The position numbers and the translations under genes are program-made. Below the pieces are notes generated by a model. That model was not told the origin of the DNA, searched no databases, and saw only the letters and a program-made list of their open reading frames with translations. A DNA stretch of 64,000 nt from Sulfurospirillum multivorans DSM 12446 (lineage in GTDB: Bacteria > Campylobacterota > Campylobacteria > Campylobacterales > Sulfurospirillaceae). This document shows positions 1,540-51,139 of the stretch, one piece after another. Numbering within the stretch: the first letter of the stretch is position 1; each line of letters starts with the position of its first letter. The stretch spans positions 186,001-250,000 of the forward strand of contig NZ_CP007201.1 in the NCBI RefSeq assembly GCF_000568815.1, in the 5' to 3' direction.

Positions 1540-1559
1540 AGGCATAAACAAGCCTTTTT
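1538..1559 (+). terminator. Hairpin terminator after AAA ATPase gene
   Basis: AAAGGC (1538-1543) pairs with GCCTTT (1552-1557) around an 8-nt loop and runs into a T tract. It overlaps the stop codon of the ATPase gene. Confidence 0.6.
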
Positions 1560-1584
1560 GAGTGCTTTACATGTAAAGCACTCA
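1559..1584. repeat. 26-bp perfect palindrome with TTTACATGTAAA core
   Basis: Bases 1559-1584 are a perfect inverted repeat centred on TTTACATGTAAA (1566-1577), the motif iterated through the window. Folded, it gives an 11-bp stem with a CATG loop. It lies between the ATPase gene and nuoA and could act as a second terminator or as a protein-binding palindrome. Confidence 0.85.
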
Positions 1585-4851: not shown

Positions 4852-5694
4852 ATGGTAAAGAAGCAATTTATAGAAGCCTTAAATCAGCCGAGCCAAGACG
4901 CTTTTGCGTTTACATGTAAAGAGTTTGATCTTATTATTTGTCTAGGAACGCTTCCTTCTCGCCATGACACAACACTCTTGGAAGATTTGAGTGCGAGTGA
5001 GGCTAAAGTGGTCTATCTCTTTACGATGGAAGATTCCGATTTGGTTGAAAAAAGTACTTTTTTTAGCCGCTATGAAGTGGGTGCAGAAGAGGGTGTATTG
5101 GCACTTCTTGCCAAAAGTTTTCTTTTACATGTAAAGCTTCCAGAAACTGTTCAAAACTATTTTGAAGAACTCGATGAGGGTTACATCAGTGCGGAGAGCA
5201 ATCTAGGCGAAGAAGAGATTGAAGAGATCGAAGCGTTGTATCAAGAGGCTAACCGTGTGCTGATTGTTTTAGGTGATGATCTGATACGTCATCCACAAGC
5301 TGCTTCTATTGCACATCTTGCAGGATTGATCGCAAAGTTTGGCAAAGCGAAATTGCTTGTTGTGGGTAGCACACCTGAAATGATTGTCTCATCACACAAT
5401 GAGAGCGTTTTAGGCGCAGTTGAAAATCTGAAAAGTTTTGATGGGGTTGTGGTTTACCAATGCCCTGTAACGCAAGCGGATGAAGAGCAACTTCTCATCG
5501 GTTCCGCCCAGTTTCAAATGGCAGCCAAAGTGCAAAACAACGACAAAATCACGGTTGCCATCAACCAAGAGGTCTATCCGCGCACCTTTGTTCGCGACGA
5601 TAGTTTAAAAGGCGTGATCGCTTTAATGCCCTGTGCGAAAGCGGACTCTAACTATCCCTACCATGTAGTAAAAATAGTGAAGGCAGAGCAATGA
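4852..5694 (+). CDS. NuoF-position protein of Campylobacterota complex I
   Basis: A 280-residue protein in the nuoF position. It has none of the hallmarks of true NuoF: no glycine-rich NADH/FMN motif and no C-terminal 4Fe-4S cysteines. It resembles by position HP1265/Cj1574c, which belong to a complex I that in Campylobacter jejuni takes electrons from flavodoxin rather than NADH. The middle part (RVLIVLGDDLIRHPQAASIAHLAGLI) recalls a segment of NuoG, LIAGEDLYTHPRAENIAKLLGLI, suggesting a duplicated molybdopterin-oxidoreductase-like fold. The gene holds two copies of the iterated palindrome (4909-4920, 5124-5135). Confidence 0.78.
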   Translation: MVKKQFIEALNQPSQDAFAFTCKEFDLIICLGTLPSRHDTTLLEDLSASEAKVVYLFTMEDSDLVEKSTFFSRYEVGAEEGVLALLAKSFLLHVKLPETVQNYFEELDEGYISAESNLGEEEIEEIEALYQEANRVLIVLGDDLIRHPQAASIAHLAGLIAKFGKAKLLVVGSTPEMIVSSHNESVLGAVENLKSFDGVVVYQCPVTQADEEQLLIGSAQFQMAAKVQNNDKITVAINQEVYPRTFVRDDSLKGVIALMPCAKADSNYPYHVVKIVKAEQ

Positions 5695-8168
5695 GCGATG
5701 TTTTAATAACCATAGATGGAAAACAGTGTACCGCGACAGAGGGTGAATACGTTTTAGGCGTTGCGCGCAGAAACGATATTTTTATCCCAGCGCTCTGTTA
5801 TGTAACGAACTGTTCACCAACGCTTGCGTGTCGTTTGTGTTTGGTGGATATCGATGGCAAAAGGGCGTACAGTTGTAACGCACGCGCCAAAGAGGGCATG
5901 AACGTTATCACGAAAACGGAAGAGATCGAAAAAGAGCGAAGAGCGATCATGGAGATTTATGACATTAACCATCCTTTGGAGTGTGGTGTCTGCGACCAAA
6001 GTGGTGAATGCGAACTGCAAAACTACACCTTGCATATGGCTGTGGACAGCCAACACCACTGCATCGCCGACACGCACCGCCCAACCAAACAGTGGGGTAA
6101 AATCCATTACGATGCATCACTCTGTATCGTGTGTGAGCGTTGTGTCACGGTGTGTAAAGATATGATCGGCGAATCAGCCCTTAAAACCGTTCCTCGCGGT
6201 GGTGCTGAGCTTGATAAGGCATGGAAAGATAAAACCGAAAAAGACGCCTATGCGATGTGGAATAAACTCCAAAAGTCGATCATCGGTATTGCCAGTGGTG
6301 CTGAAACACTCGACTGTACACAGTGTGGCGAGTGTACGGCGGTATGTCCTGTAGGAGCGCTTGTTAGCTCAGACTTCCAATACACGTCTAACGCATGGGA
6401 ACTTCAAAAAATCCCAGCGTCTAATCCGCATAGCAGTGATTGTTCGCTTCTTTATTACGATGTCAAACACACCAGTACGAGTAATCCTGAACCTAAAATT
6501 TACCGCGTCAATAGTGACCATAACTACGCGCCCCTTCATGCGGCAGCTCGTTATGGTTTTGACTTCCAAAACGAGGTTACATGTAAAGATGAAAGTGCGT
6601 TTGCACGGGTGGTTGAACTGCTTCAAACCAAAGTTGATACCATCGTTTTTGACAGTTACATTACCAATGAAGAAGCGTTGATTTTACAAAAACTCAAAGA
6701 GAAATTTGGCTTTAAGTTAGTAAACGAAGATGCCAAAGCGTATCAAAACTTCCTCAAACATTTTGCAAGTACATCAGGTTCAAATCTCTACAGTGGCGAT
6801 TTAAAATTTATTTCTGAAAGCAATTTTGTCGTAAGCTTTGGATCTGCGATTAAAACTGATAGCCCTAATGCAGGGTATGCGATGAATAATGCGATTGGTA
6901 TGAACAAAGGTGCTGGACTTTATTTCCACCCTGTGGCAGACCCCATCGTTTCGGCTTACTCAAAAAATCTTCTTAGTATCACTCATAAAATTGGCGCAGA
7001 AGAAGCCATCGCTTATCTTCTACTTGACCTTTTTGGTGATAAAGCGGCGATGCCAAAAGGTGTCGTTGACTATCTTGCCTCTTTTCACGCAGTAGAGAAA
7101 AAAATCATTCAAGAGAGCGTCAAAGAAGAGATCAAAGAGATGGTCAAAGACGAAGAGAGTGGCGAAGAAAAAGAGGTTGTTAAAACCATCACGAAAATGG
7201 TGGAGACCGAGATTGAAGTTGACACCAATGCGCTTCTTGAGATGATTGGTGAGGAAGTGGATTTGGTTGAGAAAATTACTAAACTGCTGGATAAAAAAGA
7301 TAGCTTTAGTTTGATCGCGGGCGAAGACCTTTACACGCATCCACGAGCGGAAAATATCGCCAAACTGTTAGGCTTGATTGAGCGTTTTACCGCGTTTAAA
7401 CTGGTCATTATTCCTTCACGTACCAATACATTGGGTATTTCGCTCATCTGTGATTTGGACGATGTAAAAGGAAACTTTAGTCTAGGCTATAACGTGAAAG
7501 GTGATTTTACGCTGAGTAGTTTGGGTAAGGGTGATTTGGATATGCCAGCCCTTAATCAACAAGAAGGAACGTTTACGTCGATGAACAAATGCGTTGTTCC
7601 TACCAACGCGGCACTTGCTTTTAAAGGCTATTGTCTTAATGATATTGCTAATGCCGTGGGCTTGGAAGCGGAGTGGACGATTGATTATACGCCTTATTTA
7701 CCGAGTGAAAAAGGTTTTAAGAAAGAGAAATTTGATACCTTGCCGAACCGTTTTGAAAACGATGGTACTGAAAATCGTGGCTACGCCCTTGAGCCTCAAA
7801 CGTTTACATGTAAAGATAATGTTGAACCAATTGCAAGCTTTACATGTAAAGAGGGCGATGTGGTTTACCGTGCTAATCCAGTATATCAATTTAGCGCCTT
7901 CACCAACAAAGCGCATCAACTCAGTGAAGCAGGAGCGCTGTACGCATCGACGGCATTCTTAGAAGCTAAAAATCTTCACGATGGTGCAGTCGTTACCGTG
8001 GAAAATGAGGCAGGTGCGAAGTTGGTTATCGCTGTAAAAGAAGAGAAGATGATCGATGGATTGATCGCGTATCTTCCAACGTTCGATACCAAAATCGATA
8101 CCGCACCGTTTTTTAAAGAGGGTTACCGATTCGCTCACGTCGTGATTAAAGGAGTTGAACATGTTTGA
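5691..8168 (+). CDS. nuoG: Complex I subunit G (NuoG), iron-sulfur subunit
   Basis: Large iron-sulfur subunit of the peripheral arm, 825 residues. Visible cluster ligands: [2Fe-2S] C36, C47, C50, C62; the His-Cys cluster H94, C98, C101, C107; then two CxxCxxC...C sets, C145/C148/C151/C155 and C209/C212/C215/C219. The C-terminal part is molybdopterin-oxidoreductase-like. A charged, Glu/Lys-rich insert (about residues 468-515) looks helical and solvent exposed. Three copies of TTACATGTAA (6577, 7803, 7839) encode VTCK, FTCK and FTCK in the variable C-terminal half. Overlaps neighbours by 4-8 bases. Confidence 0.95.
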   Translation: MSDVLITIDGKQCTATEGEYVLGVARRNDIFIPALCYVTNCSPTLACRLCLVDIDGKRAYSCNARAKEGMNVITKTEEIEKERRAIMEIYDINHPLECGVCDQSGECELQNYTLHMAVDSQHHCIADTHRPTKQWGKIHYDASLCIVCERCVTVCKDMIGESALKTVPRGGAELDKAWKDKTEKDAYAMWNKLQKSIIGIASGAETLDCTQCGECTAVCPVGALVSSDFQYTSNAWELQKIPASNPHSSDCSLLYYDVKHTSTSNPEPKIYRVNSDHNYAPLHAAARYGFDFQNEVTCKDESAFARVVELLQTKVDTIVFDSYITNEEALILQKLKEKFGFKLVNEDAKAYQNFLKHFASTSGSNLYSGDLKFISESNFVVSFGSAIKTDSPNAGYAMNNAIGMNKGAGLYFHPVADPIVSAYSKNLLSITHKIGAEEAIAYLLLDLFGDKAAMPKGVVDYLASFHAVEKKIIQESVKEEIKEMVKDEESGEEKEVVKTITKMVETEIEVDTNALLEMIGEEVDLVEKITKLLDKKDSFSLIAGEDLYTHPRAENIAKLLGLIERFTAFKLVIIPSRTNTLGISLICDLDDVKGNFSLGYNVKGDFTLSSLGKGDLDMPALNQQEGTFTSMNKCVVPTNAALAFKGYCLNDIANAVGLEAEWTIDYTPYLPSEKGFKKEKFDTLPNRFENDGTENRGYALEPQTFTCKDNVEPIASFTCKEGDVVYRANPVYQFSAFTNKAHQLSEAGALYASTAFLEAKNLHDGAVVTVENEAGAKLVIAVKEEKMIDGLIAYLPTFDTKIDTAPFFKEGYRFAHVVIKGVEHV

Positions 8169-10640: not shown

Positions 10641-12497
10641 ATGGAAAATTATCTTTATACCGCACTCTTTGCACCCTTGGTAAGCTCACTGTTTGTCGCC
10701 TTGTTTGCGGCACGCCCTAAGATGCTTTTTACGGGCATTGTGGCTTCTCTTCTTATTGCGATTTCGATGATTGCCTCCTTTGTGTTGCTCATCGATGTGA
10801 ACACGTATGGCCCTTTACATGTAACGATGATGGACTGGATTGCCGCGGGCAATTTGGACGTTCCGTTTGGCTTTGTGGTCGATGAAATTTCTGTCATTAT
10901 GATGGTCACCGTCACGCTGGTTTCAACCATCGTTCATATCTATTCGATTGGGTATATGGATTACGATAAGAGCTTTAACCGCTTTTTCTCTTACCTTTCC
11001 GCCTTTGTTTTCTCGATGATGATTTTGGTCATGAGCGATAACTTTGTAGGGCTTTTCATTGGTTGGGAAGGCGTGGGACTGTGTTCATGGCTCCTCATTG
11101 GTTTTTGGTACCAAAAACACTCTGCCTCTTGGGCGGCGAATGAAGCGTTTATTATGAACCGAATTGCCGACCTTGGCATGTTGATGGGTCTTTTTCTGAT
11201 CTACTGGAGTGTGGGATCATTCCAATACGATGAATTTTTTGCCAGCGTAAAAACGATGGATTCTACGCTTCTGACAACGATTGGTATCTTCTTATTTATC
11301 GGTGCGATGGGTAAATCAGCACAGTTTCCCCTTCACACATGGCTCGCCGATGCGATGGAAGGTCCAACACCGGTTTCAGCACTCATTCACGCGGCGACCA
11401 TGGTAACCGCAGGTGTTTATCTGGTTATTCGTTGTGGCGAACTCTATGCCCTTATCCCCGATGTGGGCTTTGCAATCGCATCCTTAGGCGCATTTGTCGC
11501 ACTCTTTGCCGCTTCAATGGCATTGGTCAATAACGATCTTAAACGCATTATCGCCTACTCAACGCTTTCACAATTAGGTTACATGTTTGTGGCAGCAGGA
11601 CTGGGTGCCTACTGGATTGCACTGTTTCACTTGATGACACACGCCTTCTTTAAATCACTTCTTTTTTTGGGTGCGGGTAATGTGATGCACGCGATGCACG
11701 ATGAACTCAACATCAAAAAAATGGGTGGGTTGTATGGTTCGATGAAAGCAACGGCTATTTTGATGAGCGTGGCTTCGGTGGCATTGGCGGGAATTTATCC
11801 TTTCGCTGGCTTTTTCTCCAAAGATAAAATCTTGGAAGTTGCCTTTAATGAAGGTGCATACTTTTTATGGTTTGCCCTTTTCATCGGTGCGGGACTCACT
11901 GCATTTTACAGTTTCCGTTTGGTAATGCTCGTTTTCTTTGGCGAAAAAGAGCATGTGAAGTATGGCATTCATCCGCATGAAGCGCAACCGTTTGTCATTT
12001 ATGCCCTGCTTCCTTTAGGGCTCTTAGCTATTGTGGCAGGATTTCTAGAACATACGTTTGAAGGGTTTGTAACGCGTCTTTTGGCACAGTATGAGATTCA
12101 CATCGAACACGGTACGGAAGTGTTGCTCATTGCCGCCACATTGGGAATTGCGCTCAGTGGAATTGCTTTTGCAGTTTACATGTACAGGCACGGAGGTTTC
12201 CCAAAATCGTGGGAAGAACGTTTTTGCTACAAACTTTTAAGCAACCAATACTATATACCCAAACTCTATGAACTCTATATTATGCGTCCTTTTAGTGCTT
12301 TAGCAAACTTTGCATGGCAAAAAATTGATACGAAAGTGGTGGATTTAACAGTGGATTTAATTGCTAAAATGGTGTACTCCACAGGTGAAAAAAGCAGAAA
12401 AATGCAAAGTGGTAACCTCTCTGATATGCTCAGATGGATGGTGGTTGGTATGATTGGCTTACTCATTTTAGCCTTCGTTTATAGACCGATGGTTTAG
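10641..12497 (+). CDS. nuoL: Complex I subunit L (NuoL), proton channel
   Basis: Antiporter-like subunit of 618 residues with the long lateral-helix C-terminus. Diagnostic stretches include FIGWEGVGLCSWLLIGFWY (key Glu), FPLHTWLADAMEGPTPVSAL (key Lys/His region), and LVNNDLKRIIAYSTLSQLGYM. One copy of the iterated palindrome at 10815-10824 encodes LHVT. Confidence 0.96.
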   Translation: MENYLYTALFAPLVSSLFVALFAARPKMLFTGIVASLLIAISMIASFVLLIDVNTYGPLHVTMMDWIAAGNLDVPFGFVVDEISVIMMVTVTLVSTIVHIYSIGYMDYDKSFNRFFSYLSAFVFSMMILVMSDNFVGLFIGWEGVGLCSWLLIGFWYQKHSASWAANEAFIMNRIADLGMLMGLFLIYWSVGSFQYDEFFASVKTMDSTLLTTIGIFLFIGAMGKSAQFPLHTWLADAMEGPTPVSALIHAATMVTAGVYLVIRCGELYALIPDVGFAIASLGAFVALFAASMALVNNDLKRIIAYSTLSQLGYMFVAAGLGAYWIALFHLMTHAFFKSLLFLGAGNVMHAMHDELNIKKMGGLYGSMKATAILMSVASVALAGIYPFAGFFSKDKILEVAFNEGAYFLWFALFIGAGLTAFYSFRLVMLVFFGEKEHVKYGIHPHEAQPFVIYALLPLGLLAIVAGFLEHTFEGFVTRLLAQYEIHIEHGTEVLLIAATLGIALSGIAFAVYMYRHGGFPKSWEERFCYKLLSNQYYIPKLYELYIMRPFSALANFAWQKIDTKVVDLTVDLIAKMVYSTGEKSRKMQSGNLSDMLRWMVVGMIGLLILAFVYRPMV

Positions 12498-15560: not shown

Positions 15561-16883
15561 ATGAAATCTATTTTAATCTTCCTTTTAGCATCGGTACAAC
15601 TCTTCGCTTTGGAGATTGTTTTAAACAGTGGAAAAGAGAGTAGGGTGAATTACGCCATCTTACATGTAATGGATGCAAAGCCCTTTTTATGCCAAACAAT
15701 CCCTGATGCCCTCGATAAAAAACACTACATTTGTACGATCAATCGACCCATTGACAAACCCATAGATTCGAAGAAAATGAAGCTCGTAGAGCTTGATTTT
15801 TATGAAAAAGAGGGTCTGTTTTATGTCGCGATTGAGCCAAAAGTCGATTCAAAACTGATCCCTGTGGAAGAGAGTCTTTATACGACCAGTGAGATTTTAA
15901 CGAAACCTCAAGAGAAGCTTTATTCCCACTGGACGATTCTCTTGCAAGAAAAACCCCTTTATGAAGAGAAGAGTGTTCAAGATGGAATTGACTTTCCTGT
16001 TGAATTCCCCAAATATCAAAAGCCTTACATCGGCGCACTTGATCTCAATGGTGCTCCTATTTCATACGCACAAAGCAAAGATATAGGGCTCTATTTAGAG
16101 ATTAAGAAGGCGTATGAGAGTGGTTATTATGATAATGTGGTGAAAGATGTCAAACGTGTTTTAACGCTTTTTCCTAACTCGATTTTTCGAAGTGAACTGG
16201 AACTGTATCAGATGCGCGCCATGGATAAAGTCTTGAGCGCTAAAGGTGAAGACAAATCCGATAATCTCGCTTTCAATGAAAATGACATTATCACTGTGGG
16301 TAAACGGTGGACAAAAGAGTTTGCCAGCGATGAGAATATTCCTGAAGTGTTAATGTTGATGACCAAAGCGTATATCAAAAGTGGCTCTAAATCGGATACC
16401 AATTATTTTATTGATATTTTAATCAGCGAGCATCCCGATAGTCTTTTTACCAAACGTGCCATTTTGCTCTATGCCGATAATCTTTTCCTTAAAAAAGAGA
16501 AAGATAAGGCGATGAAACTCTACCTCGATGTTCTCTTTAGCGCGCAAGATTTGGACATAGCATCCGAAGCGGCGATTCGCTTGAGTGATCATCAGATGGA
16601 TGCGGGTAAGATGAAAGAGGCTAAAGAGTATCTGCTAAAAGTGCTCAATGTCAATGCGCAGTATCTTCTTAAAGACAAAGAGGCCAGTTATAAGTTAGCA
16701 CGAAGACTTTTTGAACATCGGCTGTATGACTTAGCGGCGAAGATTACCGATTTGCTCTTAGATAACGCATCGAAGCGAGAGGATAATCGAGAGCTCTTAC
16801 TTAAAGAGAGTGGAGATTGGCATGCCAAAGCCAATGAGGTGGAAGCGGCACATGCACGCTATCAAGAGTATTTAAATGATTAG
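15561..16883 (+). pseudogene. pflA: pflA, 5' part (interrupted by IS)
   Basis: PflA is a periplasmic flagellar-motor disk protein needed for stator recruitment; C. jejuni mutants make flagella but do not swim. This part has a signal peptide (MKSILIFLLASVQLFA), a beta-rich region, then TPR-like helical repeats. The start is ATG 15561; an upstream GTG at 15528 lies inside the terminator. The frame ends at TAG 16881-16883, created where a mobile element inserted. Identity rests on position after nuoN, signal peptide, TPR-like content and total length (440+359=799 residues when rejoined, close to ~790-800 for PflA as I recall). A 440-residue secreted fragment could still be made. Confidence 0.82.
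15660..15669. repeat. TTACATGTAA copy within pflA
   Basis: Exact 10-bp palindrome inside the 5' part of pflA, read as LHV. One of at least 23 exact copies listed under the dispersed-repeat entry. Confidence 0.85.
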
Positions 16884-21367: not shown

Positions 21368-21379
21368 CTTACATGTAAG
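21368..21379. repeat. Palindrome CTTACATGTAAG upstream of miaA
   Basis: An exact copy of the iterated palindrome in the 131-bp region between divergent miaA and the UbiA-family gene, 10 bp upstream of the miaA start. It could influence either gene, but most copies elsewhere are inside genes. Confidence 0.8.
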
Positions 21380-22361: not shown

Positions 22362-22892
22362 ATGGAAACCATTCGTTTCGTGACCGCTTTTTTAAAGATC
22401 GCCTTTGAGCCAAGTGATGTGGAAAATTCACCGTTGATGCAAGAGTATTACACACTTTTGCAGATCAATGATGACCCGTTAGGCGTTTGGCTCAAATCTT
22501 CTAGAATTCGCAAAGAAGCCGAAGCGAGCGATCAGGTACTTTTAACACTGTTGATTGAACTGCACCGCAAAATCGATAAATTGACCCATCTGTCGACCAG
22601 TGACACACCGTTGTATGTGCCTTTAGCGATGCACGGAAATCTCAAAGCGATTGGGCATGGGTACATTGAGTTTGATAGCGCTGTTTTAAAATTAAACGAG
22701 AGCTATTATGCACGCATTGATATGCCAACGTTTCCAAGGCGTCAGATTCCCATTTTTTTTGAAGCGCACACGCAGAGCATCGGTAAAATTGTGATGATGC
22801 ACGAAGATGATGAGAACGATTGGAACGCTTATATGGTAGCGTGTGAGCGTGTGATGATACGCCAAATGAAAGGAAATCAAAGTGAGTATTGA
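22362..22892 (+). CDS. Conserved protein, possible PilZ-like C-terminus
   Basis: 176 residues, no membrane segment. The C-terminal ~90 residues (LKAIGHGYIEFDSAVLKLNESYYARIDMPTFP split by short loops) look like a small beta barrel, and the following RRQIPIFFEAH is weakly PilZ-like; the canonical RxxxR and D/NxSxxG motifs are not clear. It starts 2 nt after the prenyltransferase gene and overlaps the next gene, so it is in that operon. Function unknown. Confidence 0.7.
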   Translation: METIRFVTAFLKIAFEPSDVENSPLMQEYYTLLQINDDPLGVWLKSSRIRKEAEASDQVLLTLLIELHRKIDKLTHLSTSDTPLYVPLAMHGNLKAIGHGYIEFDSAVLKLNESYYARIDMPTFPRRQIPIFFEAHTQSIGKIVMMHEDDENDWNAYMVACERVMIRQMKGNQSEY

Positions 22893-23397
22893 AACCCTCG
22901 CCTTTATAGCATTAGCAGCCCTTGTGGTGATCATTTTTTTAATGGTCTATATTCGCGATATCGAGGTCAATAAAAAACTGATGATTTATGAAAAAAGCAT
23001 CGAAGAGCTGAACTACCAAAATCATGTGCTCAATAAGACATTAAACGAACTCACTTCCGCTTCTAAAGAGCCTGCACTCGATGCTAAGGCGTTGGAGAGT
23101 AAGATTCTTGGGAGTGTAAAAGAGGAGATCCATCAAAGCGTGTTTCCTCTGGTGGCTTCCCTCCAAGATGTTGAAAAAATTATGCAAAATTTCAGAGATG
23201 AGCAAAGTGGTCGCATTGATCGTTTGGAGAGCCGTACCAAAGAGATGGGATTTGCCTCCTCGTCGCCTTCAAGCTCGAATGAAAAAGTGATCGTTTCCCA
23301 ATACGCCAAAGGCAGAAGCGAAGCTGAAATTGCCAAAGATTTACGTATTGGCATTGGTGAAGTTGATCTTGTGTTGAAATTGGCAAATTTAAAATAA
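22882..23397 (+). CDS. Membrane-anchored coiled-coil protein with C-terminal HTH-like motif
   Basis: 171 residues. It has one N-terminal helix (TLAFIALAALVVIIFLMVYI), a long charged coiled coil, and a C-terminal segment VSQYAKGRSEAEIAKDLRIGIGEVDLVLKL resembling the small HTH of DUF6115/DUF2802-type proteins. The start is GTG 22882 with AAAGGA upstream, overlapping the previous stop. It ends three bases before a 30-bp palindromic terminator. Role unknown. Confidence 0.75.
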   Translation: MSIETLAFIALAALVVIIFLMVYIRDIEVNKKLMIYEKSIEELNYQNHVLNKTLNELTSASKEPALDAKALESKILGSVKEEIHQSVFPLVASLQDVEKIMQNFRDEQSGRIDRLESRTKEMGFASSSPSSSNEKVIVSQYAKGRSEAEIAKDLRIGIGEVDLVLKLANLK

Positions 23398-23399
23398 TG

Positions 23400-23429
23400 T
23401 AAAACGGCTTTACATGTAAAGCCGTTTTA
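23400..23429. terminator. 30-bp perfect palindrome, bidirectional terminator
   Basis: A perfect palindrome between convergent genes, with TTTACATGTAAA (23409-23420) at its centre. It folds into a 13-bp stem with a CATG loop; one arm begins AAAACGGC and the other ends GCCGTTTT, so a T tract follows on both strands. The iterated palindrome has been built into a terminator here. Confidence 0.85.
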
Positions 23430-23434
23430 AGTAC

Positions 23435-24883
23435 TTACTTCCCTGTAGAACGGCACTCCGAAGCGGATTCTTGGATCATGGAATCTAAAAGAGTAAAGAG
23501 GCTGGTACTCGCATCTTCCATCTTTTTAAAATTGTTAATGAAGTGTGAAATCGTCTCACTGGTATACCCATTTTTAAGCAGTTGCATATTTTCAAGCACA
23601 GAGTGATGCACCGTTTTGTGCGGTTCGTGAAGCATCGGATACGATTTGGTACTACCAAAGCGCTGTTGAGTCGTAGGCTCTTGGTACCACTTTCCAAGCC
23701 TACACGTCTCATGGTCTGAGAATGCAATATCTTGTTTTTCATTGAGAACGGCAGAGTAAGCATTGGTTTTATAGACAACATGATCGATCTTCGCCAAAAT
23801 TGTAAAGATTTTATTTTCAAGCTTATACGAGATGTCCGCTGTAGCATTAGCATCTTTGTTAAAGGCACGCAGTGCATCTTCAAAGTGAATGACATTTTGA
23901 CCGCTCGTGTTAGCAATAACGCTAATACGATCCGAATTGGAGTGAATGCCATTGGTCTCTTGTTGCAAGGTTTGAATCGTCATGGCGATCTCTTGCGTCG
24001 CTTTTTGGGTACGTTCAGCAAGCTTTCGCACTTCATCCGCAACAACGGCAAAGCCACGTCCGTGTTCACCTGCACGTGCTGCTTCAATGGCGGCGTTGAG
24101 TGCGAGCAAATTGGTTTGATCGGCGATGTCTTTAATGAGGTTTGCCACAGAAGAGATTTCCGAAGTGCGTTCACTCAAAGAAGTAATCGCCTCATTGGTG
24201 CTGGCTAAAAGTTCTAGGAGCTCTTGAATGCCTGAAGAGAGCTCGATGACAGTTTCTAAACTATCATTGGATTTTTCAGCGGTCATATTGGAAACTTCAG
24301 TGATTTGCGACATCTCTTGAATGCTGTTGGAGAGGTCTTGTTGAATGCTAATCACACCGTTATTTCCATTGCCAAGGTCTGAGAATGCCGAAGAGAGCAT
24401 GCCTCTGGCTTTTCCTTTTTGCCCTTCTGAGATGCCACTAACCCCCTGGGAAAGATAACGTGCATTAATCGCAAAGAGTCCACGGAACCCTTCGTTAAAG
24501 ATATTACGATACGTTTTGCCTTGACTAGCTGATTCGATAGAGGTTTTTGTCTCTCTCATCAATGCTTCCATTTGGTCTAACAGATCGTTGATGGCGTACG
24601 CCACTTCGCTCATCGGTTGTTTGGGATTGACATTAACGACACGAGGCTCTAGGTTACCTTTAGCCGCCTCTTTAACCACATTGAGCACTTTTTCATAGAT
24701 GTCAACATCACACTGCATACTCTTACGGCTTCCAAAAAAAGAGCCGACACCCACACCCAGAAGCAATCCAGACGTCGCCATCGTATCGGTATAGCCTGCA
24801 AAGTAACTTCCACAAGCGATGAGAACGAAAAGAGCAAAAAAAGTCAGTTTAGAGTCGTTGAAGCGTGTTAGAAAGCTCTGCAT
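23435..24883 (-). CDS. Methyl-accepting chemotaxis protein with CZB-like end (CetA-like)
   Basis: 482 residues from ATG 24881-24883. Two N-terminal hydrophobic helices with almost no periplasmic loop are followed by a HAMP-like region, and the receptor signalling hairpin contains [19 protein letters not shown]. The C-terminus carries [13 protein letters not shown] and later H..H residues, the pattern of the chemoreceptor zinc-binding (CZB) domain. With no sensor domain outside the membrane and a PAS protein encoded just upstream, it resembles CetA/CetB energy-taxis receptors. The longer frame to 24961 overlaps the PAS gene and is less likely. Confidence 0.85.
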
Positions 24884-26485: not shown

Positions 26486-27621
26486 GTAAAATAGAAGAAG
26501 GGGATCTCTTCGCCTTCTTCTATACTCTCTTTGCCTTCGCTTAGGGTATAACCATTGCATTGACTGAGGATATTAAGCCGTCCTGCCTCGTAATAGGGAG
26601 CGCATACAAAGTGTCTTCCATCGCTGTAACCTGGAATGGCACTCATCGAATTATCTTTACATGTAATGCGTTTTTGGTTGATGCAGGTGATAAAATCAGG
26701 AATAATGCAATGCCGGTGTTGCAGGTGTCGAAGCAGTGGAACACCCAACATTTCAAATCCCAACATGCACCCCAGCGGAAGTCCTGGAAGATGTAAAATA
26801 GGCGTGTTCTCAAAAAGTGTCAGTGCACTTGGCTTAGCAGGCGTAATGCGGACTTGGTGAAAAAGAGGCAGAAGTGTTTTGGTCTCCAAGAGATGGCGCA
26901 TCGCATCGTGACGACTGAGTGCTCCCGTTGTTATCACACAATCTGCTTTGCCAACCAGTTCTTGCAGTGCTTTTAAAATCTTAGCGTCATCCTCTTCGCC
27001 AATAACAATTTCCCCTACTTTCCCCCCTAATTCGATAACCCGTGCCGCTAAACTCATCGCATTGGAGTTATGAATTTCGCCCGTTGCGAGTTGAGAGCCA
27101 ATGCTTAAAATACTTACCGTTGGTCTTTGAACGGCTTTGACGGTATTAATGCCTTGTGACGAGAGGGCGGTGATTTTTTGCGCACTGATGCGCTCATATT
27201 TTTTCAACAACAACTCTCCCTTAGAAATGTCTTCGCCCTCTTTTTTGATGTGTTGGGATTGGCTTACATGTAAAGGAATTTTGATGCACTCATCGTGGTC
27301 AACCAAGACATCTTCTTCGGCAATAATGGTATCGGCACCTTCGGGAATGCTCTCCCCCGTGGAAAGCCTAACACCGTACCCCAACGGAATGGGCGTAGGA
27401 TAGGGTGGATTTAAAAGTGTGTAGGTAAGGGTAGTTGGCTCAAATGCAATGCCATAGCCTTCTTTCAGGCTCATCGGATGTTTTGGGAGCGCAAATTTGG
27501 CGTAAACATCGCTACTGGAAATGCGGTTGATCGCTTTTAAAAGAGGCAATGTTTGGTTTACATGTAAAGGTTGAATCTGCGTCTGAATGATCTGAAGCGC
27601 TTCTTGGTACGAAATAGGCAT
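26467..27621 (-). CDS. moeA: Molybdopterin molybdotransferase (MoeA)
   Basis: Inserts molybdenum into molybdopterin. 384 residues, slightly short. Visible: the [17 protein letters not shown] segment, [20 protein letters not shown] (where many MoeA have GGVSxGxxD), and the [15 protein letters not shown] segment. The GGVS motif is altered to TGALSRHD, so activity should not be assumed. Three copies of TTACATGTAA (26657, 27264, 27557) fall in it, encoding ITCK, PLHV and PLHV on the minus strand. Confidence 0.85.
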
Positions 27622-28111: not shown

Positions 28112-28780
28112 ATGCAGTTTGTCTATCATCCCCGTGCAGGTGAGCCACTCCTCAAAGTAGATACGAGGGAATACGAACATCTCTTTAAAGTGCGTCGTAT
28201 CAGCGTGGGAGAGAAGCTTTCGTGGCGAAATTTAGAAGATGCGTTTATCTATGAGTATGAAATTACCCAGATTGGTAAAAAAGAGGCAGAGCTCGCACTT
28301 GTGTCTCAAAAAGAGTTGCCATTGATGCCTTCAAACGTTTTACATGTAGGTTGGAGTATCATCGATCCTAAGATCATTGAAAAGACACTTCCGATGCTCA
28401 ATGAACTCGGTGTTTCTAAGATCAGTTTTGTTTATGCCGAATTTTCGCAAAAAGGGCATAAACTGGACTTGGAGCGCATGAAGCGTATTTTGATCAACTC
28501 TTCCCAACAGTGTGGGCGAAGTTTATTGATGCCAATCGAAGTGTTTACTTCGCTTCAAACCTATTTAGAAGCGTATCCGAAAAGTCATGTCTTGGACTTT
28601 TCAGAGGTCAAATTAAAGGGCGATGAAGCGATTAGTTCAATCTTGATTGGACCGGAGGGCGGATTTAGCCAAAAAGAGCGATTGTTACTTCAAACTCAAC
28701 CGATTGTGGGTCTTACATGTAACACAATTTTACGAAGTGAAACGGCAGTAGTGGCTGCGGCTTCCAAAATATTGGCATGA
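28112..28780 (+). CDS. rsmE: 16S rRNA m3U1498 methyltransferase (RsmE)
   Basis: SPOUT-class methyltransferase, 222 residues. N-terminal PUA-like part, then the knotted domain with LIGPEGGFSQKE and the C-terminal ILRSETAVVAA SAM-binding loops. Contains one exact palindrome copy (28713-28722, LTCN) and one 9/10 copy near 28339. Confidence 0.92.
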   Translation: MQFVYHPRAGEPLLKVDTREYEHLFKVRRISVGEKLSWRNLEDAFIYEYEITQIGKKEAELALVSQKELPLMPSNVLHVGWSIIDPKIIEKTLPMLNELGVSKISFVYAEFSQKGHKLDLERMKRILINSSQQCGRSLLMPIEVFTSLQTYLEAYPKSHVLDFSEVKLKGDEAISSILIGPEGGFSQKERLLLQTQPIVGLTCNTILRSETAVVAAASKILA

Positions 28781-29916: not shown

Positions 29917-29926
29917 TTACATGTAA
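29917..29926. repeat. Intergenic TTACATGTAA copy
   Basis: Exact palindrome in the short gap between rsmI and the next rRNA methyltransferase gene, 13 bp after the rsmI stop. Confidence 0.8.
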
Positions 29927-31594: not shown

Positions 31595-32406
31595 AAAAAT
31601 TATGTCTTATTCTCATCCTTTCACTCTCTTTATTTGGGGCGCAGAGCCTTCAAGAAAAGATTCGAAGTTTTGTGGGTGCTTCAAAATATGAAACACAAAA
31701 AAACCTAATTCAAGTCCTTTTTGCGCAAAATAGCACCTTTGTAAAACCCAATGGTGAAGTGGACAGTGTCAAAGTGATTTCAACGCTTAAAAAAAATGGG
31801 TTGCTCCAACTTTTATACGATAGACCCATCCAGTTACGTTTGGCATTTCGTACACAAAGTGATCCGCTTATTTTTCTCAAAATTGTGAATGAATCCCTTG
31901 AAGCGATGGGGTATAACTATTTTTTAACAAACAATGCACTGCGCGATAGTGCGGGTTTCGTATGGGAGATTTACCTTCAAACCGAGCATATCGTCGATCC
32001 TGAAACCTTCGCGAATGCCCTTGAGGCTAGAGGATGCACTGTAACGAATATCGTAAAAAATGAAGACCATTACTGGTTTTATGACATTGATTCAAGTAAC
32101 GCTTATCTGGGCGCTAAAAAGGTAGAAAGTGGTGTTACAACACCCTTAGGCAAGCCTTTAAAGCCTTATTGGATTGATGTGAAAAATAGGAGAGAGGTCA
32201 CCATAACCGTTCACTCAGGTGATCGTTGGTTTCCCGATGTTGTCTTTTTTGATGAAAATTTGCATCTACTCAGTGATGTCAAATCGGAAGAATCGACACG
32301 AACGCTGAAGCTAAAAGTTCCTAGTAATGCCGTTTATTTGAAAATTGGCGATGCTTTTATGCTTGAGAATATAAAACATGGATTATCTTTACATGTAAAA
32401 GAGTAA
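31591..32406 (+). CDS. Periplasmic protein of unknown function
   Basis: 271 residues with a clear signal peptide (KKLCLILILSLSLFGAQS). The start GTG 31591 overlaps the RodZ-like stop. Two modules may be present: an N-terminal alpha/beta part and a C-terminal beta part (HSGDRWFPDVVFFDENLHLL). The C. jejuni neighbourhood has a periplasmic protein in the same slot. It ends with a palindrome copy encoding SLHVKE (32388-32399). Confidence 0.75.
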   Translation: MKKLCLILILSLSLFGAQSLQEKIRSFVGASKYETQKNLIQVLFAQNSTFVKPNGEVDSVKVISTLKKNGLLQLLYDRPIQLRLAFRTQSDPLIFLKIVNESLEAMGYNYFLTNNALRDSAGFVWEIYLQTEHIVDPETFANALEARGCTVTNIVKNEDHYWFYDIDSSNAYLGAKKVESGVTTPLGKPLKPYWIDVKNRREVTITVHSGDRWFPDVVFFDENLHLLSDVKSEESTRTLKLKVPSNAVYLKIGDAFMLENIKHGLSLHVKE

Positions 32407-34908: not shown

Positions 34909-35235
34909 ATGAGTTTAAAGGTAGGAAAAGAGGCTGAAGAGAAGGCCTCTGCCTACCTTAAAAAAGAGGGACATACGATCCTTGCACAAAATTTTCACTC
35001 GAAATTTGGCGAAATCGATATTATTACATGTAAAGAGAATACCCTTCATTTCTGCGAAGTTAAATTTTCACACAAATACGATCCTATCACGCGTATTACC
35101 CCTTCTAAAATGACAAAAATCATCAAAACAATACAGTATTATTTGCTAACGCACCCCAATTCGTATGATTATCAAATTGATGCTATTTTAGTAACGCCAG
35201 AAACCATTGAAATAATAAAAAATATTAGTTACTAA
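34909..35235 (+). CDS. YraN/UPF0102 family nuclease-fold protein
   Basis: 108 residues, one base after hom. Shows the restriction-endonuclease-like core of the family: GKEAEEKASAYLKKEGHTIL, GEIDIIT and HFCEVKF. Function of the family is not settled. Palindrome copy 35024-35033 encodes IITCK, immediately after the GEID motif. Confidence 0.9.
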   Translation: MSLKVGKEAEEKASAYLKKEGHTILAQNFHSKFGEIDIITCKENTLHFCEVKFSHKYDPITRITPSKMTKIIKTIQYYLLTHPNSYDYQIDAILVTPETIEIIKNISY

Positions 35236-37502: not shown

Positions 37503-38840
37503 ATGTGTGCAATTGTTGGTGTATTTGATGTAAAACATGCTTCTAAGATAGCCTATTATGCTCTGTTTGCGATGCAACATCGTGGTCAAGAAGCAACAGG
37601 TATCAGTGCCAGTGATGGCAAGAAAATCCGAACGATTAAAGATAATGGTTTAGTCACCGAAGTCTTTAACGAAGAAAAACTCGCTTTCTTACATGGCGAC
37701 ATGGCGATCGGGCATAACCGTTATTCAACCGCAGGAAGTGACTCGGTAAGAGATGCACAACCTGTCGCCGCTAGTTATAAACTGGGCGATATTTCTATTG
37801 TTCATAATGGAAATTTGATCAATAAACATGAAGTGCGAAGTAAATTGGTGGAACAAGGTGCTATTTTCCAATCTTCCATGGATACGGAAAATATCATCCA
37901 TCTCATCGCTCGTTCCCAACAAGGCAAACTCAAAGACCGTATCATTGAAGCTTTACATGTAATCAAGGGAGCGTATTGTCTTTTGATTCAAAGTAGATCC
38001 AAAATGTTTGCTATCCGTGATCGTTACGGAGTTCGTCCGTTATCGATTGGTAAAATGAAAGAGGGCGGTTACATCGTTGCAAGTGAGACATGCGCACTTG
38101 ATCTCGTAGATGCTGAGTTTGTAAGAGACGTCAGACCTGGCGAGATGGTTATTTTTCAACACGGTAAAGAGACCTTTGAAAGCATCCAACTTTTTGAGCC
38201 CGATCCACATATCTGCGCCTTTGAATTTATCTATTTCGCTCGTCCTGATAGCGTCATTGAAGGTAAAAATGTTTATGCCGCACGCAAAAAAATGGGTATG
38301 AAGCTCGCAGAACTCGCTCCTGTTGAAGCAGACTTTGTGATTCCCGTTCCTGATAGTGGCGTTAGTGCAGCATTAGGATATGCACAAGCCAGTGGCATTC
38401 CTTTTGAAATGGCGATTGTTCGAAATCATTACGTTGGAAGAACGTTCATTGAGCCAACCCAAGCCGTACGTGATCTCAAAGTAAAACTCAAACTCTCTCC
38501 AATTCATAAAATTTTAGAAGGTAAAAAAATCGTTGTGATTGATGATAGTATCGTAAGAGGTACCACGTCACGTCAGATTGTAAAATTACTTAAACGTGCG
38601 GGTGCTGCTGAAGTGCATATGCGCATCGCGGCTCCAACGATTGAGCATCCGTGTTTGTATGGCATTGATACCCCAAGCTATAAAGAGCTTATTAGTGCCA
38701 ATAAAACTGTTGAAGAAGTCAGAGAGTATATTGAAGCAGATTCATTGGCTTTTTTAAGTATTGAAGCGCTTAAAGAGAGTATTGGCAACGATATGAACTA
38801 TTCACTGGTTAGCTTTGATGGAAACTATTTTATTAAATAA
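37503..38840 (+). CDS. purF: Amidophosphoribosyltransferase
   Basis: First committed step of purine synthesis. 445 residues. The N-terminal nucleophile Cys follows Met directly (MCAIVGVFDV), so no propeptide is needed. NRYSTAG and HNGNLIN lie in the glutaminase half, and the PRPP loop VVIDDSIVRGTTSRQIV in the transferase half. Stop overlaps the next ATG (TAATG). Confidence 0.96.
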   Translation: MCAIVGVFDVKHASKIAYYALFAMQHRGQEATGISASDGKKIRTIKDNGLVTEVFNEEKLAFLHGDMAIGHNRYSTAGSDSVRDAQPVAASYKLGDISIVHNGNLINKHEVRSKLVEQGAIFQSSMDTENIIHLIARSQQGKLKDRIIEALHVIKGAYCLLIQSRSKMFAIRDRYGVRPLSIGKMKEGGYIVASETCALDLVDAEFVRDVRPGEMVIFQHGKETFESIQLFEPDPHICAFEFIYFARPDSVIEGKNVYAARKKMGMKLAELAPVEADFVIPVPDSGVSAALGYAQASGIPFEMAIVRNHYVGRTFIEPTQAVRDLKVKLKLSPIHKILEGKKIVVIDDSIVRGTTSRQIVKLLKRAGAAEVHMRIAAPTIEHPCLYGIDTPSYKELISANKTVEEVREYIEADSLAFLSIEALKESIGNDMNYSLVSFDGNYFIK

Positions 38841-43858: not shown

Positions 43859-43963
43859 ATGAAAGTAATGCTTTATTGTGGTTTTACATGTAAAGATATA
43901 GGAGCGTATAAAGAGGTGCATTCACCTTGCGATGGGTGCATGACACTGTATTTTTCGCTCTGA
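43859..43963 (+). CDS. Possible 34-residue Cys-rich mini-protein
   Basis: A short frame, ATG 43859 to TGA 43961-43963, with AAGG (43845-43848) upstream and a good -10 box. The product has four cysteines in a zinc-ribbon-like spacing: CGFTC (C7, C11) and CDGC (C24, C27), ending hydrophobic (MTLYFSL). The FTCK segment is written by the iterated palindrome (43883-43894), so one Cys may be incidental. No family recognised; it could also be a non-coding leader of bcp. Confidence 0.45.
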   Translation: MKVMLYCGFTCKDIGAYKEVHSPCDGCMTLYFSL

Positions 43964-44530: not shown

Positions 44531-47407
44531 TTAGTTACTCACTGAAATCGAACATCCCACCCACTCTTCACGAATCGCATCACTGGCTTGAGGCTCATTT
44601 TTTATAAGTCGCGCAGGTGCTATTTTATACTTTGTCGTCAAGGTTTGAAAGATAGTATCGAAGCGCTTAAGTGCTAAAGCGTGAAGTGCTTCAGGTGCTA
44701 TCGTAATGCTTTCTGCAATCTTAGAGATCAAAGAATCGTGAATAGCACCAAGATCTAAATTCTCTTCTTTATAGGTTTTCATCAGCTTACTGTACGCATC
44801 ATCCGAGTATTTTTGAATGAAAAGTTTTTTGATCGTTTTGCCATAACTATCATCTTCTTTGCTTTTTTTAGGAATCAAGGTTTCGATTTGTGCTGTGACA
44901 TTTTGTTCTTGAAGCGCCTTGGTATCGAGGGTTTCATTGTAACTTGGCGTAATGATGAGTTTGAGTTCCGCTCTTTTGTCTAAAATTTGACGATACTGCT
45001 CCATTTTTTCCTCTTCCGAGGCAATAAGTACAGATTCACCAGCCGCAAAATCGATACTTTTAAGATTTTCCGTTTCAATTCCTAGCATAGAGCCTAAAAG
45101 TTTAAACGGAGATGTCACAATGCTCCCGATGAGGTTTCCAATCGCTTTCCATACAATGCTTCCATAACGAAATTCAGGGTCATTCAAGTCGCCACTCACG
45201 GAGAGGTCAAGGTCAATTTGCCCTCTAGAATCTTTCAAAATAGCAATCGCAAGTCCTAAAGGAAGATTGGATGCGTCTTTACTTTCGATCTTTTCACCCA
45301 GGATGAGTGAATCGAGGTTGATTTTATTGGCACCTTCCATGACTCCTTTTTTAATTTTATAGTTCAGATCCATCGAGAGTTTTCCCTCTTTAATCGCATA
45401 CCCTATGAATTTACTCGTATAAGGTGAAAGAGAAGGCATATCGATGTTTTTAAAGAGGATTTTGAGTGCGGCTCGATCTTTAAAATCAAACGGCAAAACA
45501 GATCCATCAATTTTTGTATAGCCGTATTTATCCACTTTTCCTTCGAGTTTGAGCACGGAGGGTTTGGTGCTTTTAGTGTCAAGGGTTGACATCGATCCAT
45601 TGAGGCGATCTGCAAATGTCGCAAAAGGAAGGAGCAAGGAAGCATCTTTAAAATGCGTTGTTCCTCTTTTGAGTACGATATTGCCAATATACATGGACAT
45701 CGCATCGTGTGTGGTTGTGGCTTTTTGTGTTTGAGACGACTTTTGGGGTTGTGTGGTTGATGTGTTTAAAAGATTGGAAAAATTGGTGGTGCCATCTTTT
45801 TTGATGTCAAGATTGATATAAGGTTTATCCAGCGTGATCTTTTGAATACTAAGTGCTGCAGGAGAGAGATTGTAAGCGATACTGTTAACATTTAGCGTTT
45901 CCCATGCCACAAGCGAGTTTTTGAATTTATCGGCGAGTGAAAATTTAGAGACGGTTGCATCTCCTTCGATTTTGAACGTTGGCTTTTGATCAAACGAAGC
46001 GGTGAGCTTAGACGTGAGCGATAAGGAACCGTCTTGAATGAGCGTTGTTGTAAAAAGCGTGATGTAAGGTTGCGCTTTTTCTAAAGAGAGTTTAGAGGCA
46101 TTCATTACCATCTCAAGTGAAGCCGTCGCAGGGATAAAAATACCTTTTGCGTTTAAAGAAGCGGTGGTGTCGATGGTGCTGTTAAAATCATAACTAATAG
46201 GGCTATTTTGATCGTGCGTAATGTTTTGAGCCGTTAGTTTCAAAGGTGCCAAGTGGATAGGCGTACTTTTGACATTTTTGTCCGTAACATCAATGGTTGC
46301 TTCATTGATTTCGAACGTTTTGAGTGCAAATTTCCACTCATTTTTAGTTTCTTGCGCGGCAGGTGTTGGAGTTTTGGGTTGCGTTGGTCCACTTTTAGGG
46401 GTAAACAGTTGTACCAAATTCACCGCATACTCTTTCTCCAACTGCACATCCACAAACGGTTTGGAAAGGGTGGCTTTTTCGATGCTGATGTTAGACGTTT
46501 GCAGGTCAAAATCAATCGTTTCAAGTTTGAGAGAAGGCACTTCAACGACTGTTTTTTGCTCCGTATCGACGAAGCGAATTTTTTCCAATAAGGCAGATGC
46601 TTTTTCGAAAGATACCAGTGGTTTTTCTTTGCTTAGATCTATGGAAAAAGGAACTTTAAGTGAGAGCTCGCCTTGGGTAAGGGTTGCTGGAATGTTGGGT
46701 AATGCGTATCGCCAAAAGTGTGAAATTGGAAGATGTGAAATACCCAGTTCCCCGTAAAATTTGAGAGGTTCAAAGGAAGCACTGCTGGCGAGCGTTATTT
46801 TTTCTTCATTTTTTAACATCACTTTGAGTGCGTGAATGCTCAGATCATCTTTGTAAAAACTGAGATTGTTGACCGCATAATTGATAGGGCCAATTTCGAG
46901 TTTAAACGGCTCACTGGGGCGTTCATCGCTAAAGTTAGTTTTCGCATTTTGAATTTCAACATGCTCGATGATAAAAGGCATCATCAGACTCGTATCCGTG
47001 GTTGTATTGCTTTCGCTCGAAGGGTTTGTTGGAAAAAGGCTCAGGAGTGTTAGATTCCCTTTTGGATCGATTTTAAGGTCAACAAAGGGTTGCTCAAGCA
47101 GGAGTGATTTGACAAAAAACTCTTTCTTGAAAAGATAGGTTGGATCGTAATTGATGTAAAGATGCTCCAGCGTTGCAACATCGTTTTTTGCCGTATCGCG
47201 CAGTGCAAAATGGTTTACATGTAACTCAAACGTAAAGGGGTTAAAAAGCACTTTTTCCATGGAAACAAAGAGATGAAATTTCTCTTCCAAAAGGGAAGGC
47301 ATTTGGGTACGCACCCACCATGGAAGGATCACAAAACCACTCAACGTATAAAGCAAAGGGAGAAAAATCAACCAGAATAGTAGACTTTTGAGACACTTTT
47401 TGATCAT
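44531..47407 (-). CDS. AsmA/DUF748-like envelope protein
   Basis: 958 residues. One N-terminal membrane helix (SLLFWLIFLPLLYTLSGFVI), then long beta-rich repeats of the kind YINYDPTYLFKKEFFVKSLL...PFVDLKIDPKGNLTLLSL, typical of DUF748/AsmA-like proteins that may form bridges for lipid transport to the outer membrane. AAGGAG lies just upstream of the ATG and a TATAAT on the minus strand near 47435-47440. One palindrome copy (47215-47224, LHVN) is near the N-terminus. Confidence 0.85.
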   Translation of the reverse strand: MIKKCLKSLLFWLIFLPLLYTLSGFVILPWWVRTQMPSLLEEKFHLFVSMEKVLFNPFTFELHVNHFALRDTAKNDVATLEHLYINYDPTYLFKKEFFVKSLLLEQPFVDLKIDPKGNLTLLSLFPTNPSSESNTTTDTSLMMPFIIEHVEIQNAKTNFSDERPSEPFKLEIGPINYAVNNLSFYKDDLSIHALKVMLKNEEKITLASSASFEPLKFYGELGISHLPISHFWRYALPNIPATLTQGELSLKVPFSIDLSKEKPLVSFEKASALLEKIRFVDTEQKTVVEVPSLKLETIDFDLQTSNISIEKATLSKPFVDVQLEKEYAVNLVQLFTPKSGPTQPKTPTPAAQETKNEWKFALKTFEINEATIDVTDKNVKSTPIHLAPLKLTAQNITHDQNSPISYDFNSTIDTTASLNAKGIFIPATASLEMVMNASKLSLEKAQPYITLFTTTLIQDGSLSLTSKLTASFDQKPTFKIEGDATVSKFSLADKFKNSLVAWETLNVNSIAYNLSPAALSIQKITLDKPYINLDIKKDGTTNFSNLLNTSTTQPQKSSQTQKATTTHDAMSMYIGNIVLKRGTTHFKDASLLLPFATFADRLNGSMSTLDTKSTKPSVLKLEGKVDKYGYTKIDGSVLPFDFKDRAALKILFKNIDMPSLSPYTSKFIGYAIKEGKLSMDLNYKIKKGVMEGANKINLDSLILGEKIESKDASNLPLGLAIAILKDSRGQIDLDLSVSGDLNDPEFRYGSIVWKAIGNLIGSIVTSPFKLLGSMLGIETENLKSIDFAAGESVLIASEEEKMEQYRQILDKRAELKLIITPSYNETLDTKALQEQNVTAQIETLIPKKSKEDDSYGKTIKKLFIQKYSDDAYSKLMKTYKEENLDLGAIHDSLISKIAESITIAPEALHALALKRFDTIFQTLTTKYKIAPARLIKNEPQASDAIREEWVGCSISVSN

Positions 47408-49917: not shown

Positions 49918-51139
49918 AGAGTGTAGTTTTTGTGGCACGAAAGAGAGTAGTGACACACGTTTGATCGCAGGCGATGATGTTTTCATCTGCGAGCATTGTG
50001 TTATCTCCGCCCATAAGATATTTTTTGGAGAAATCCCAGAGCCTTCTGTAAGTGGCAATGAAGAAGCGTTCGATCAAGAGCTTTTAGCACCCAAAGAGCT
50101 CAAAAAAGTGCTCGATGATTTTGTGATCGGACAAGACCATGCCAAAAAGATTTTTTCGGTGGGTGTGTATAACCACTATAAGAGAATTTTCAAACAAAGC
50201 ACTATTGCTGACGATACTGAAATTTCTAAATCCAACATTTTACTCATTGGCCCAACGGGTAGCGGTAAAACTTTGATGGCTCAAACTTTAGCACGCTTTT
50301 TAGATGTGCCGATTGCCATCTGTGACGCTACGAGTTTAACGGAAGCAGGTTACGTGGGTGAAGATGTTGAAAACATTCTTACAAAATTGCTTCAATCCGC
50401 CAATGGCGATATTAAAAAAGCAGAGCAAGGTATTGTGTTTATCGACGAGATCGATAAAATAGCTCGTATGAGTGAAAACCGCTCCATCACCAGAGATGTT
50501 TCAGGCGAGGGCGTTCAACAAGCATTGCTTAAAATCATCGAGGGTAGCGTGGTCAACATTCCACCCAAAGGTGGACGAAAACACCCAAATCAAGATTTTA
50601 TTCAGATTGATACCACCAATATTTTATTTGTCTGTGCGGGTGCTTTTAATGGCTTGGAAGAGATCATCAAACGTCGTATCGGCAAAAATGTGCTTGGATT
50701 TGAGCAAGAAAAACGCACCAAAAGCCAAGATGCAGGACTGTTTGATTTGGCAGAGCCCGATGATTTAGTGCATTACGGTCTGATTCCAGAGCTCATTGGA
50801 CGTTTACATGTAACCGCAAAACTCTCACCAATTACGCAAGAAGACATGGTGCGTATTTTGACGGAACCTAAAAATGCGATCTATAAACAGTACCGAAAAC
50901 TCTTTGCAATTGATAACGTCGAGCTCTCTTTTGAGAAAGAAGCGCTTGATTCTGTGGCAGAGCTTGCGATCAAACGCAAAACGGGAGCGCGTGGACTTCG
51001 AAGTATTATAGAAGACATTATGGTGGATGTAATGTATGAGCTTCCAGAGTTGGATGGGTACGAAGTGGTGATTACAAAAGATGTGGTTACAAAAGGTGAA
51101 AAACCGCTTTATATCAAAAAAGATAAAAAAAGTGCGTAA
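49907..51139 (+). CDS. clpX: ATP-dependent Clp protease ATPase subunit ClpX
   Basis: 410 residues from ATG 49907, with GAGAGGA just upstream; the frame extends back to 49835 but that part lacks a site and lies inside lpxA. N-terminal zinc domain CSFCGTKES...CEHC, Walker A GPTGSGKT, Walker B VFIDEIDK, and GGRKHPNQ and [11 protein letters not shown] pore and loop motifs. Palindrome copy at 50814 encodes RLHVT. Confidence 0.97.

Follow-up and report, generated by a model that had tools for sequence, protein, structure and literature searches.

The convergent junction of two genes in Sulfurospirillum multivorans DSM 12446 carries a 30-bp perfect palindrome (positions 23400-23429), which we read, with a probability of roughly 0.7, as a bidirectional terminator-like hairpin capped by one copy of a separate, highly iterated palindrome, TTACATGTAA. 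All positions are those of the window, the whole 64,000-nucleotide stretch of DNA that was analyzed. The observations behind this reading are the sequence of the element, its copy number, its conservation, the compensatory changes in its arms, and its genomic position. The hairpin would end transcription, with T-runs that are weak.

A palindromic hairpin at the convergent junction

The junction spans 37 bp (23398-23434) and separates the end of a DUF6115 protein gene (22882-23397, + strand) from the end of a methyl-accepting chemotaxis protein gene with a CZB domain (23435-24883, - strand). Gene calls were made with a simple custom finder. Most of the junction is occupied by the palindrome (TAAAACGGCTTTACATGTAAAGCCGTTTTA). 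As originally predicted, it is perfect over 30 bp, and if it folds, the loop is CATG. The arms have zero gap between them, and the loop would be closed by a stem of 13 bp. The core TTACATGTAA lies at the apex (23410-23419). This palindrome is the longest among the 27 even palindromes of at least 12 bp in the window. Around the 386 core copies of a larger 864-kb sample (the window and 40 stretches of 20 kb, approximately 27% of the genome), none sits in a longer one.

The hairpin begins 2 nt past one stop codon and finishes 5 nt short of the other, and the predicted folding energies were -15.2 and -15.3 kcal/mol for the two strands. A stable hairpin just past the stop codon, as in Rho-independent terminators, was thus found at this site. 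A terminator consensus scan accepted the hairpin on the - strand only and rejected it on the + strand, so the hairpin is probably weaker in the + direction. The tail on the - strand, TTTTACATTATTTTAAATTT, is T-rich. The A/T ends had been proposed to suit termination on both strands; a hairpin capped by the iterated palindrome is supported on both strands, the T-runs are short, and the scan agrees for the - strand only.

The hairpin in related genomes

Across the genus, 21 of 24 genomes yielded a readable orthologous junction; orthology was assigned when the gene end beyond the junction matched. The core was present in 13 of these junctions, as a single apex in 10 and as a pair in three (G012, G025, and G021, where one member of the pair is a one-base core variant), and absent from the remaining eight. 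Folding was performed for 19 junctions (11 with and eight without the core; those of G015 and G022 were left out), and all 19 gave a stable hairpin, with energies of -12.4 to -29.3 kcal/mol and z values of -2.7 to -9.4 against base shuffles. Most of the eight core-less junctions carry a different hairpin rather than the same stem. Two of them belong to G018 and G019, which are motif-rich genomes, and absence of the core at the junction therefore needs no genome-wide loss. The junction of G022 shows a one-base deletion in one arm.

Compensatory changes were counted in eight of the 21 junctions, those giving gap-free alignable rows. In these rows, 95.2% of the cells were paired, and slid structures reached at most 52.1%. 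Changes on both sides were observed at five of the 13 stem pairs, a number that 16 of 500 shuffles reached; the covariation score was reached by none of 500 shuffles, which ignore shared descent. A stem kept with compensatory changes, another trait of Rho-independent terminators, was accordingly observed in the eight junctions counted. The inner part of the hairpin reads ACGGGTTTA-CATG-TAAACCCGT in G013 and ACGGGTTTA-GGAA-TAAACCCGT in the core-poor genome G028 (238 copies). Because G028 keeps the inner stem of G013 with a GGAA loop, the hairpin and the motif appear to be under separate constraints at the junction.

Copy number and distribution of the core

In the one-contig genome of 3,175,729 bp, 1,484 copies of the core were counted, against two occurrences of its reversed control. 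The 864-kb sample contained 386 copies, compared with approximately two predicted from base composition. Within the window, 23 copies were found. Apart from the apex copy and the copy at 1567-1576, which is described below, they lie at 4910-4919, 5125-5134, 6577-6586, 10815-10824, 15660-15669, 21369-21378, 26657-26666, 27264-27273, 27558-27567, 28713-28722, 29917-29926, 32389-32398, 35024-35033, 37953-37962, 43884-43893, 47215-47224, 50804-50813, 54634-54643 (genic, within a 22-bp palindrome), and 57662-57671 (within a 16-bp palindrome). Two further cores lie together within a gene (7804-7849), separated by 26 bp; no other two cores of the window are within 40 bp of each other.

The spectrum of the core was nearly all-or-none over 10 bp. 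In the sample, one-base variants at core positions 2-9 were near background (0 to 7 each), and the ends were more tolerant, with C at position 1 in 26 cases and G at position 10 in 16 cases. The hexamer ACATGT outside TACATGTA was counted 123 times, against approximately 250 predicted by base composition. Adjacent to the core, T and then C were preferred, followed by A/T at 4 to 8 bases out; beyond approximately three bases, the flanks of the sampled copies had only A/T richness in common.

Copies were also counted across the family (44 genomes). Within the genus (g1), 21 of 24 genomes carried 411-1,496 copies, and the other three carried 49 (G020), 168 (G033), and 238 (G028). The ten genomes of g2 carried 6-97 copies. 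A sample of the order comprised 149 genomes, of which 138 belong to other families; among these 138, G139 and G160 carried 367 and 340 copies, and the remaining 136 carried 0-10. Both G139 and G160 belong to family f17, whose other nine sampled genomes carried 0-10 copies, a pattern that points to acquisition by transfer or to repeated loss.

Several minor observations were made during these counts. On contig C1 of G000, two stretches of more than 20 kb (approximately 20.1-43.0 kb and 243.7-265.6 kb) contain no motif copy and are possibly acquired DNA or rRNA operons. The palindromes AAGCGCTT (83 versus 11.5 expected) and CATCGATG (58 versus 11.5 expected) were also overrepresented in the 864-kb sample, and CCGG, GGCC, and CTAG were rare there (0.17, 0.18, and 0.27 of expectation, respectively). 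A scan of 180 kb of G020 gave no strong candidate for a replacement palindrome, and the window gave no Rfam match at gathering scores.

Conservation of the core at the DNA level

Among the 386 sampled copies, 250 lie inside genes, where 171 are read as Leu-His-Val and three fall in the stop-codon frame. The 23 window copies were compared with the same places in five relatives and were identical in 21 (G017), 16 (G012), 16 (G015), 18 (G013), and 0 (G020) cases. A clear orthologous sequence was available for 16 of the genic copies; identity was found for 15 in G017, 12 in G012, 14 in G015, and 13 in G013, whereas random genic 10-mers, used as a control, were identical in 62%, 20%, 17%, and 13% of cases, respectively. 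Because the genic copies were kept far above random 10-mers, the motif appears to be under its own constraint in these four genomes, and we infer that selection holds it. In G020, none of the 16 genic copies was kept versus 10% of random 10-mers, which is no difference.

Most sampled copies are thus genic, and the genic copies that were compared are conserved far above background, yet absent in G020. For this reason, the core is most readily interpreted as a DNA-level signal and not as a product of terminators. The ATPase protein identity to the own genome was 96% for G020 and 97% for G028, versus 94% for the motif-rich G013, G014, and G027. Since these identities place G020 and G028 nearer than the three motif-rich genomes, they suggest that G020 and G028 lost the motif.

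Gene ends, extended palindromes, and paired copies

Core density per kb was 2.66 in convergent gaps, 2.01 in tandem gaps, 0.96 in divergent gaps, and 0.32 within genes (250 copies in approximately 781 kb). In the sample, 22 of the 75 convergent gaps contained a core, as did 75 of the 451 tandem gaps and 16 of the 88 divergent ones. Among gaps of 31-60 bp, one of six size classes and chosen after viewing, 14 of 25 convergent gaps had a core versus nine of 50 tandem gaps (P = 0.0013).

In the sample, five intergenic copies had palindromes of at least 22 bp, four of them at a 3' gene end. These five, among 135 intergenic copies, compare with 0.59 expected from re-paired flanks (Poisson P = 0.0004). 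Genic copies showed no excess at this length (1 of 249 versus 0.46 expected). Mean flank pairing was within 2 standard deviations of re-paired flanks in every context, with a z value of 0.5 for convergent gaps (n = 30). As the flank pairing in convergent gaps stayed at the re-paired level, only a minority of the copies are likely to be hairpin apexes. Long intergenic palindromes are rare, yet above chance. The suggestion that some copies grew into terminators has to be recast, since the hairpin and the palindrome are separable at the junction, where eight of 21 orthologs have a hairpin that lacks the core.

Close core copies can also fold on each other, and this paired form is commoner than long apex palindromes. 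The arrangement core-N(3-30)-core was found 903 times, compared with 249 for core-N(60-87)-core (3.6-fold), and close pairs were the commoner form in all 24 genomes. In the sample, the two cores were separated by 2-28 bp in 21 pairs, and 16 of these pairs were intergenic: seven in convergent, nine in tandem, and none in divergent gaps. Only 19 of the 135 intergenic copies lie in divergent gaps, so the absence of pairs there is a weak result. In four relatives (360 kb), three of eight pairs were intergenic, and the proportion of 16 in 21 should therefore be taken for the sample only. The 12 nt after paired copies contained 35% T (23 tails, six of them with at least six T), compared with 34% for random sequence downstream of genes (44 of 208 tails with at least six T) and 28% for single copies (9 of 99). 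Paired copies thus showed no T enrichment in their 12-nt tails relative to random downstream-of-gene sequence.

In G012, nine of 45 paired copies are near-identical, with the form core-GGA-(short A/T stretch, in one case with a C)-TCC-core, and look like one hairpin type recurring at many places. A search of viral contigs for one paired form (13-bp copies with six free bases) gave no match.

A second extended copy, at 1559-1584 (+), lies downstream of an AAA ATPase gene (10-1539, +) and upstream of a nuoA-like gene (Oxidored_q4; 1669-2085, +). The palindrome (TGAGTGCTTTACATGTAAAGCACTCA) is indeed perfect over 26 bp, begins 20 bp downstream of the final base of the ATPase gene, and contains the core at 1567-1576. 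Its proposed role as a terminator fared less well. The scan accepts it loosely, but its tail, TGGATTTGTT, has no clean T-run, and a separate small terminator-like hairpin of the form GGC...GCC-TTTTT (AAGGC..GCCTTTTT; 1538-1559, +) lies just upstream, at and just past the ATPase stop codon. This small hairpin was seen in several relatives.

Proposed mechanism and alternative explanations

We propose that the 30-bp hairpin is common to the convergent DUF6115 and chemotaxis receptor genes and would work as a terminator from either side. A transcript from either strand would fold into the 13-bp stem with the loop CATG, and the A/T ends would supply each direction with a short T-run, of which the one on the - strand is the better. 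The apex would be one copy of the genus-wide TTACATGTAA, a DNA-level signal in its own right that is maintained for a different reason, and the constraint on the stem (an RNA hairpin) would be independent of that on the core (a DNA motif). Because TTACATGTAA is its own reverse complement, it could fit terminators in two ways whatever its orientation: a single copy may cap a stem, as at 23400, or two neighboring copies may pair to make the stem.

Bidirectional intrinsic terminators consist of an A-tract, a stem, and a T-tract between convergent stop codons and undergo compensatory evolution. The element at 23400-23429 is alike, but its apex is fixed as CATG by the iterated motif, and its T-run is short. 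REP hairpins protect or trim the 3' ends of messages. Such a function, in which the hairpin would protect or trim the ends of messages that end elsewhere (e.g., after Rho termination) and would not itself terminate, agrees with the weak T-runs and with the location of the 26-bp copy downstream of a separate T-run hairpin. We regard it as unlikely at the convergent junction. The hairpin is 2 nt and 5 nt from the stop codons, which leaves little room for another terminator, and the T-rich tail TTTTACATTATTTTAAATTT on the - strand also speaks against it.

Alternatively, the palindrome could serve solely as a DNA target of a protein or methyltransferase, with its greater length and its position being incidental. 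The DNA-level signal with its nearly all-or-none 10-bp spectrum, the mostly genic copies, and the average flank pairing at chance are all consistent with this explanation. It is nevertheless very unlikely to account for the junction, where orthologs keep a hairpin without the core and the arms change in a compensatory way; moreover, extended palindromes are above chance between genes only. Least credible is a genus-wide repeat that was born from terminators, as the original prediction had suggested, or that spreads as a small mobile repeat (REP/MITE-like). An approximately five-fold higher density between genes than within them is in its favor, but it is contradicted by the 250 of 386 copies that are genic, by the conservation of genic copies as DNA, by mean flank pairing not above that of re-paired flanks, and by the finding of copies at matching positions in relatives (21, 16, 16, and 18 of 23 in G017, G012, G015, and G013, respectively). 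Classification as REP/BIME or MITE, which implies shared sequence beyond the core and mobile copies, was rejected: beyond approximately three bases the flanks share only A/T richness, and the positions are common to relatives.

Relation to known iterated motifs

According to Kingsford et al. 2007 (PMC1852404), the uptake motifs of Neisseria and Pasteurellaceae are 9-11 nt long and generally number at least 1,000 per genome, and closely spaced complementary copies form terminator hairpins, which in Neisseria have long stems and fewer T residues in the tail. Uptake sequences in the terminators of Neisseria and Pasteurellaceae (Haemophilus) are, by analogy, probably the closest parallel to the TTACATGTAA hairpins, which likewise combine a copy number of approximately 1,000 or more per genome with close hairpin-capable pairs. 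Those uptake motifs are nonpalindromic and need an inverted pair to form a hairpin, whereas TTACATGTAA can cap a stem as a single copy and can form a pair from any two. TTACATGTAA is likened to uptake sequences by copy number and paired hairpins.

HIP1, as presented by Elhai 2015 (PMC4390886), is a highly iterated palindrome with a link to orphan methyltransferases; some lineages have few copies of it, and its one-base deviants are biased to end positions. TTACATGTAA resembles the cyanobacterial HIP1 and alternate HIPs described there as an iterated palindrome, far above expectation genome-wide and rare in some lineages. In contrast to HIP1 (GCGATCGC), TTACATGTAA is AT-rich, 10 bp long, found in Campylobacterota, and has internal one-base variants at background; its methyltransferase link is also imperfect. 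A word search of Elhai 2015 (PMC4390886) gave no mention of Sulfurospirillum, ACATGT, epsilon, Campylobacter, or terminator. Judged by title and the start of the abstract, none of the matches listed from the open-licence literature describes such a repeat, and the sole mention of "palindrom" in the available part of PMC8865925 concerns CRISPR.

The present case lies outside Neisseria, Pasteurellaceae, and cyanobacteria and is one in which a genome-wide motif and terminators have sequence in common. Because motif-bearing and motif-free species are close relatives, the two constraints can be separated. With the same set of species, it becomes testable what maintains highly iterated palindromes in genomes, through a factor whose presence follows that of the motif. 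Software for terminator prediction or motif discovery can confuse one signal with the other.

Candidate cognate factors

A tentative explanation, which we consider possible but on balance doubtful, is that Sulfurospirillum and its kin use TTACATGTAA as a self-recognition address that has gone unreported. It would be read by a dimeric DNA-binding protein (in DNA uptake, repair, or nucleoid organization), possibly marked by an orphan D12 methyltransferase, and present at approximately 1,000-1,500 sites per genome, with selection or biased conversion clearing one-base variants. It would double as a terminator module, and whole lineages would lose all sites at once.

A 327-aa D12-class orphan methyltransferase or a homologue was found in 16 of the 19 genus genomes with at least 600 copies and in one of the five with fewer (P = 0.014, with the threshold set afterwards and descent not corrected). 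The gene at L231:5666-6649 (-) encodes such an orphan D12-class DNA methyltransferase of 327 aa, and no restriction gene was recognized among the neighboring reading frames. In G000, the orphan methyltransferase has the coordinates C1:2827666-2828649. Within the genus, the methyltransferase tracks the motif imperfectly. Homologues without the motif were found in seven of ten g2 genomes (6-97 copies), in G040 (29), G076 (2), and G090 (1), and at the loci L301, L302, L306 (titled Helicobacter), and L305, where 11.8-21 kb contained no motif copy. Conversely, G024, G035, G160, and G011 have the motif without a full-length homologue, as do G029 and G030, whose assemblies are 86 and 77% complete. 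The methyltransferase was rejected as the sole cause, being neither sufficient nor necessary. PF01555 methyltransferases, present in 16 of 38 genomes, showed no evident association with the motif. ComEC was present in 41 of 44 family genomes, including the motif-poor G020, G028, and G033; it is therefore nondiscriminating and was rejected as a companion of the motif.

Alternative folds in the ATPase-nuoA gap

Relatives also carry a hairpin at the 1559-1584 site, with altered arms; in G020 and G028 it lacks an intact core. The comparison used 13 of 20 loci, with G018, G019, G021, G023, G024, G032, and G033 left out of the folds. Pairing of AACAAGCC with GGATTTGTT could enclose the 26-bp palindrome and compete with the small GGC/GCC-TTTTT hairpin. 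The predicted folds went one way in G000 and G017 and the other way in G012, G016, G022, G028, G020, G027, G013, and G014. From its sequence, the site may be read as a compound terminator or a leader structure. In the segment 1538-1600, the small T-run hairpin and the AACAAGCC/GGATTTGTT pairing look mutually exclusive, and this segment is possibly an attenuator ahead of a nuo operon.
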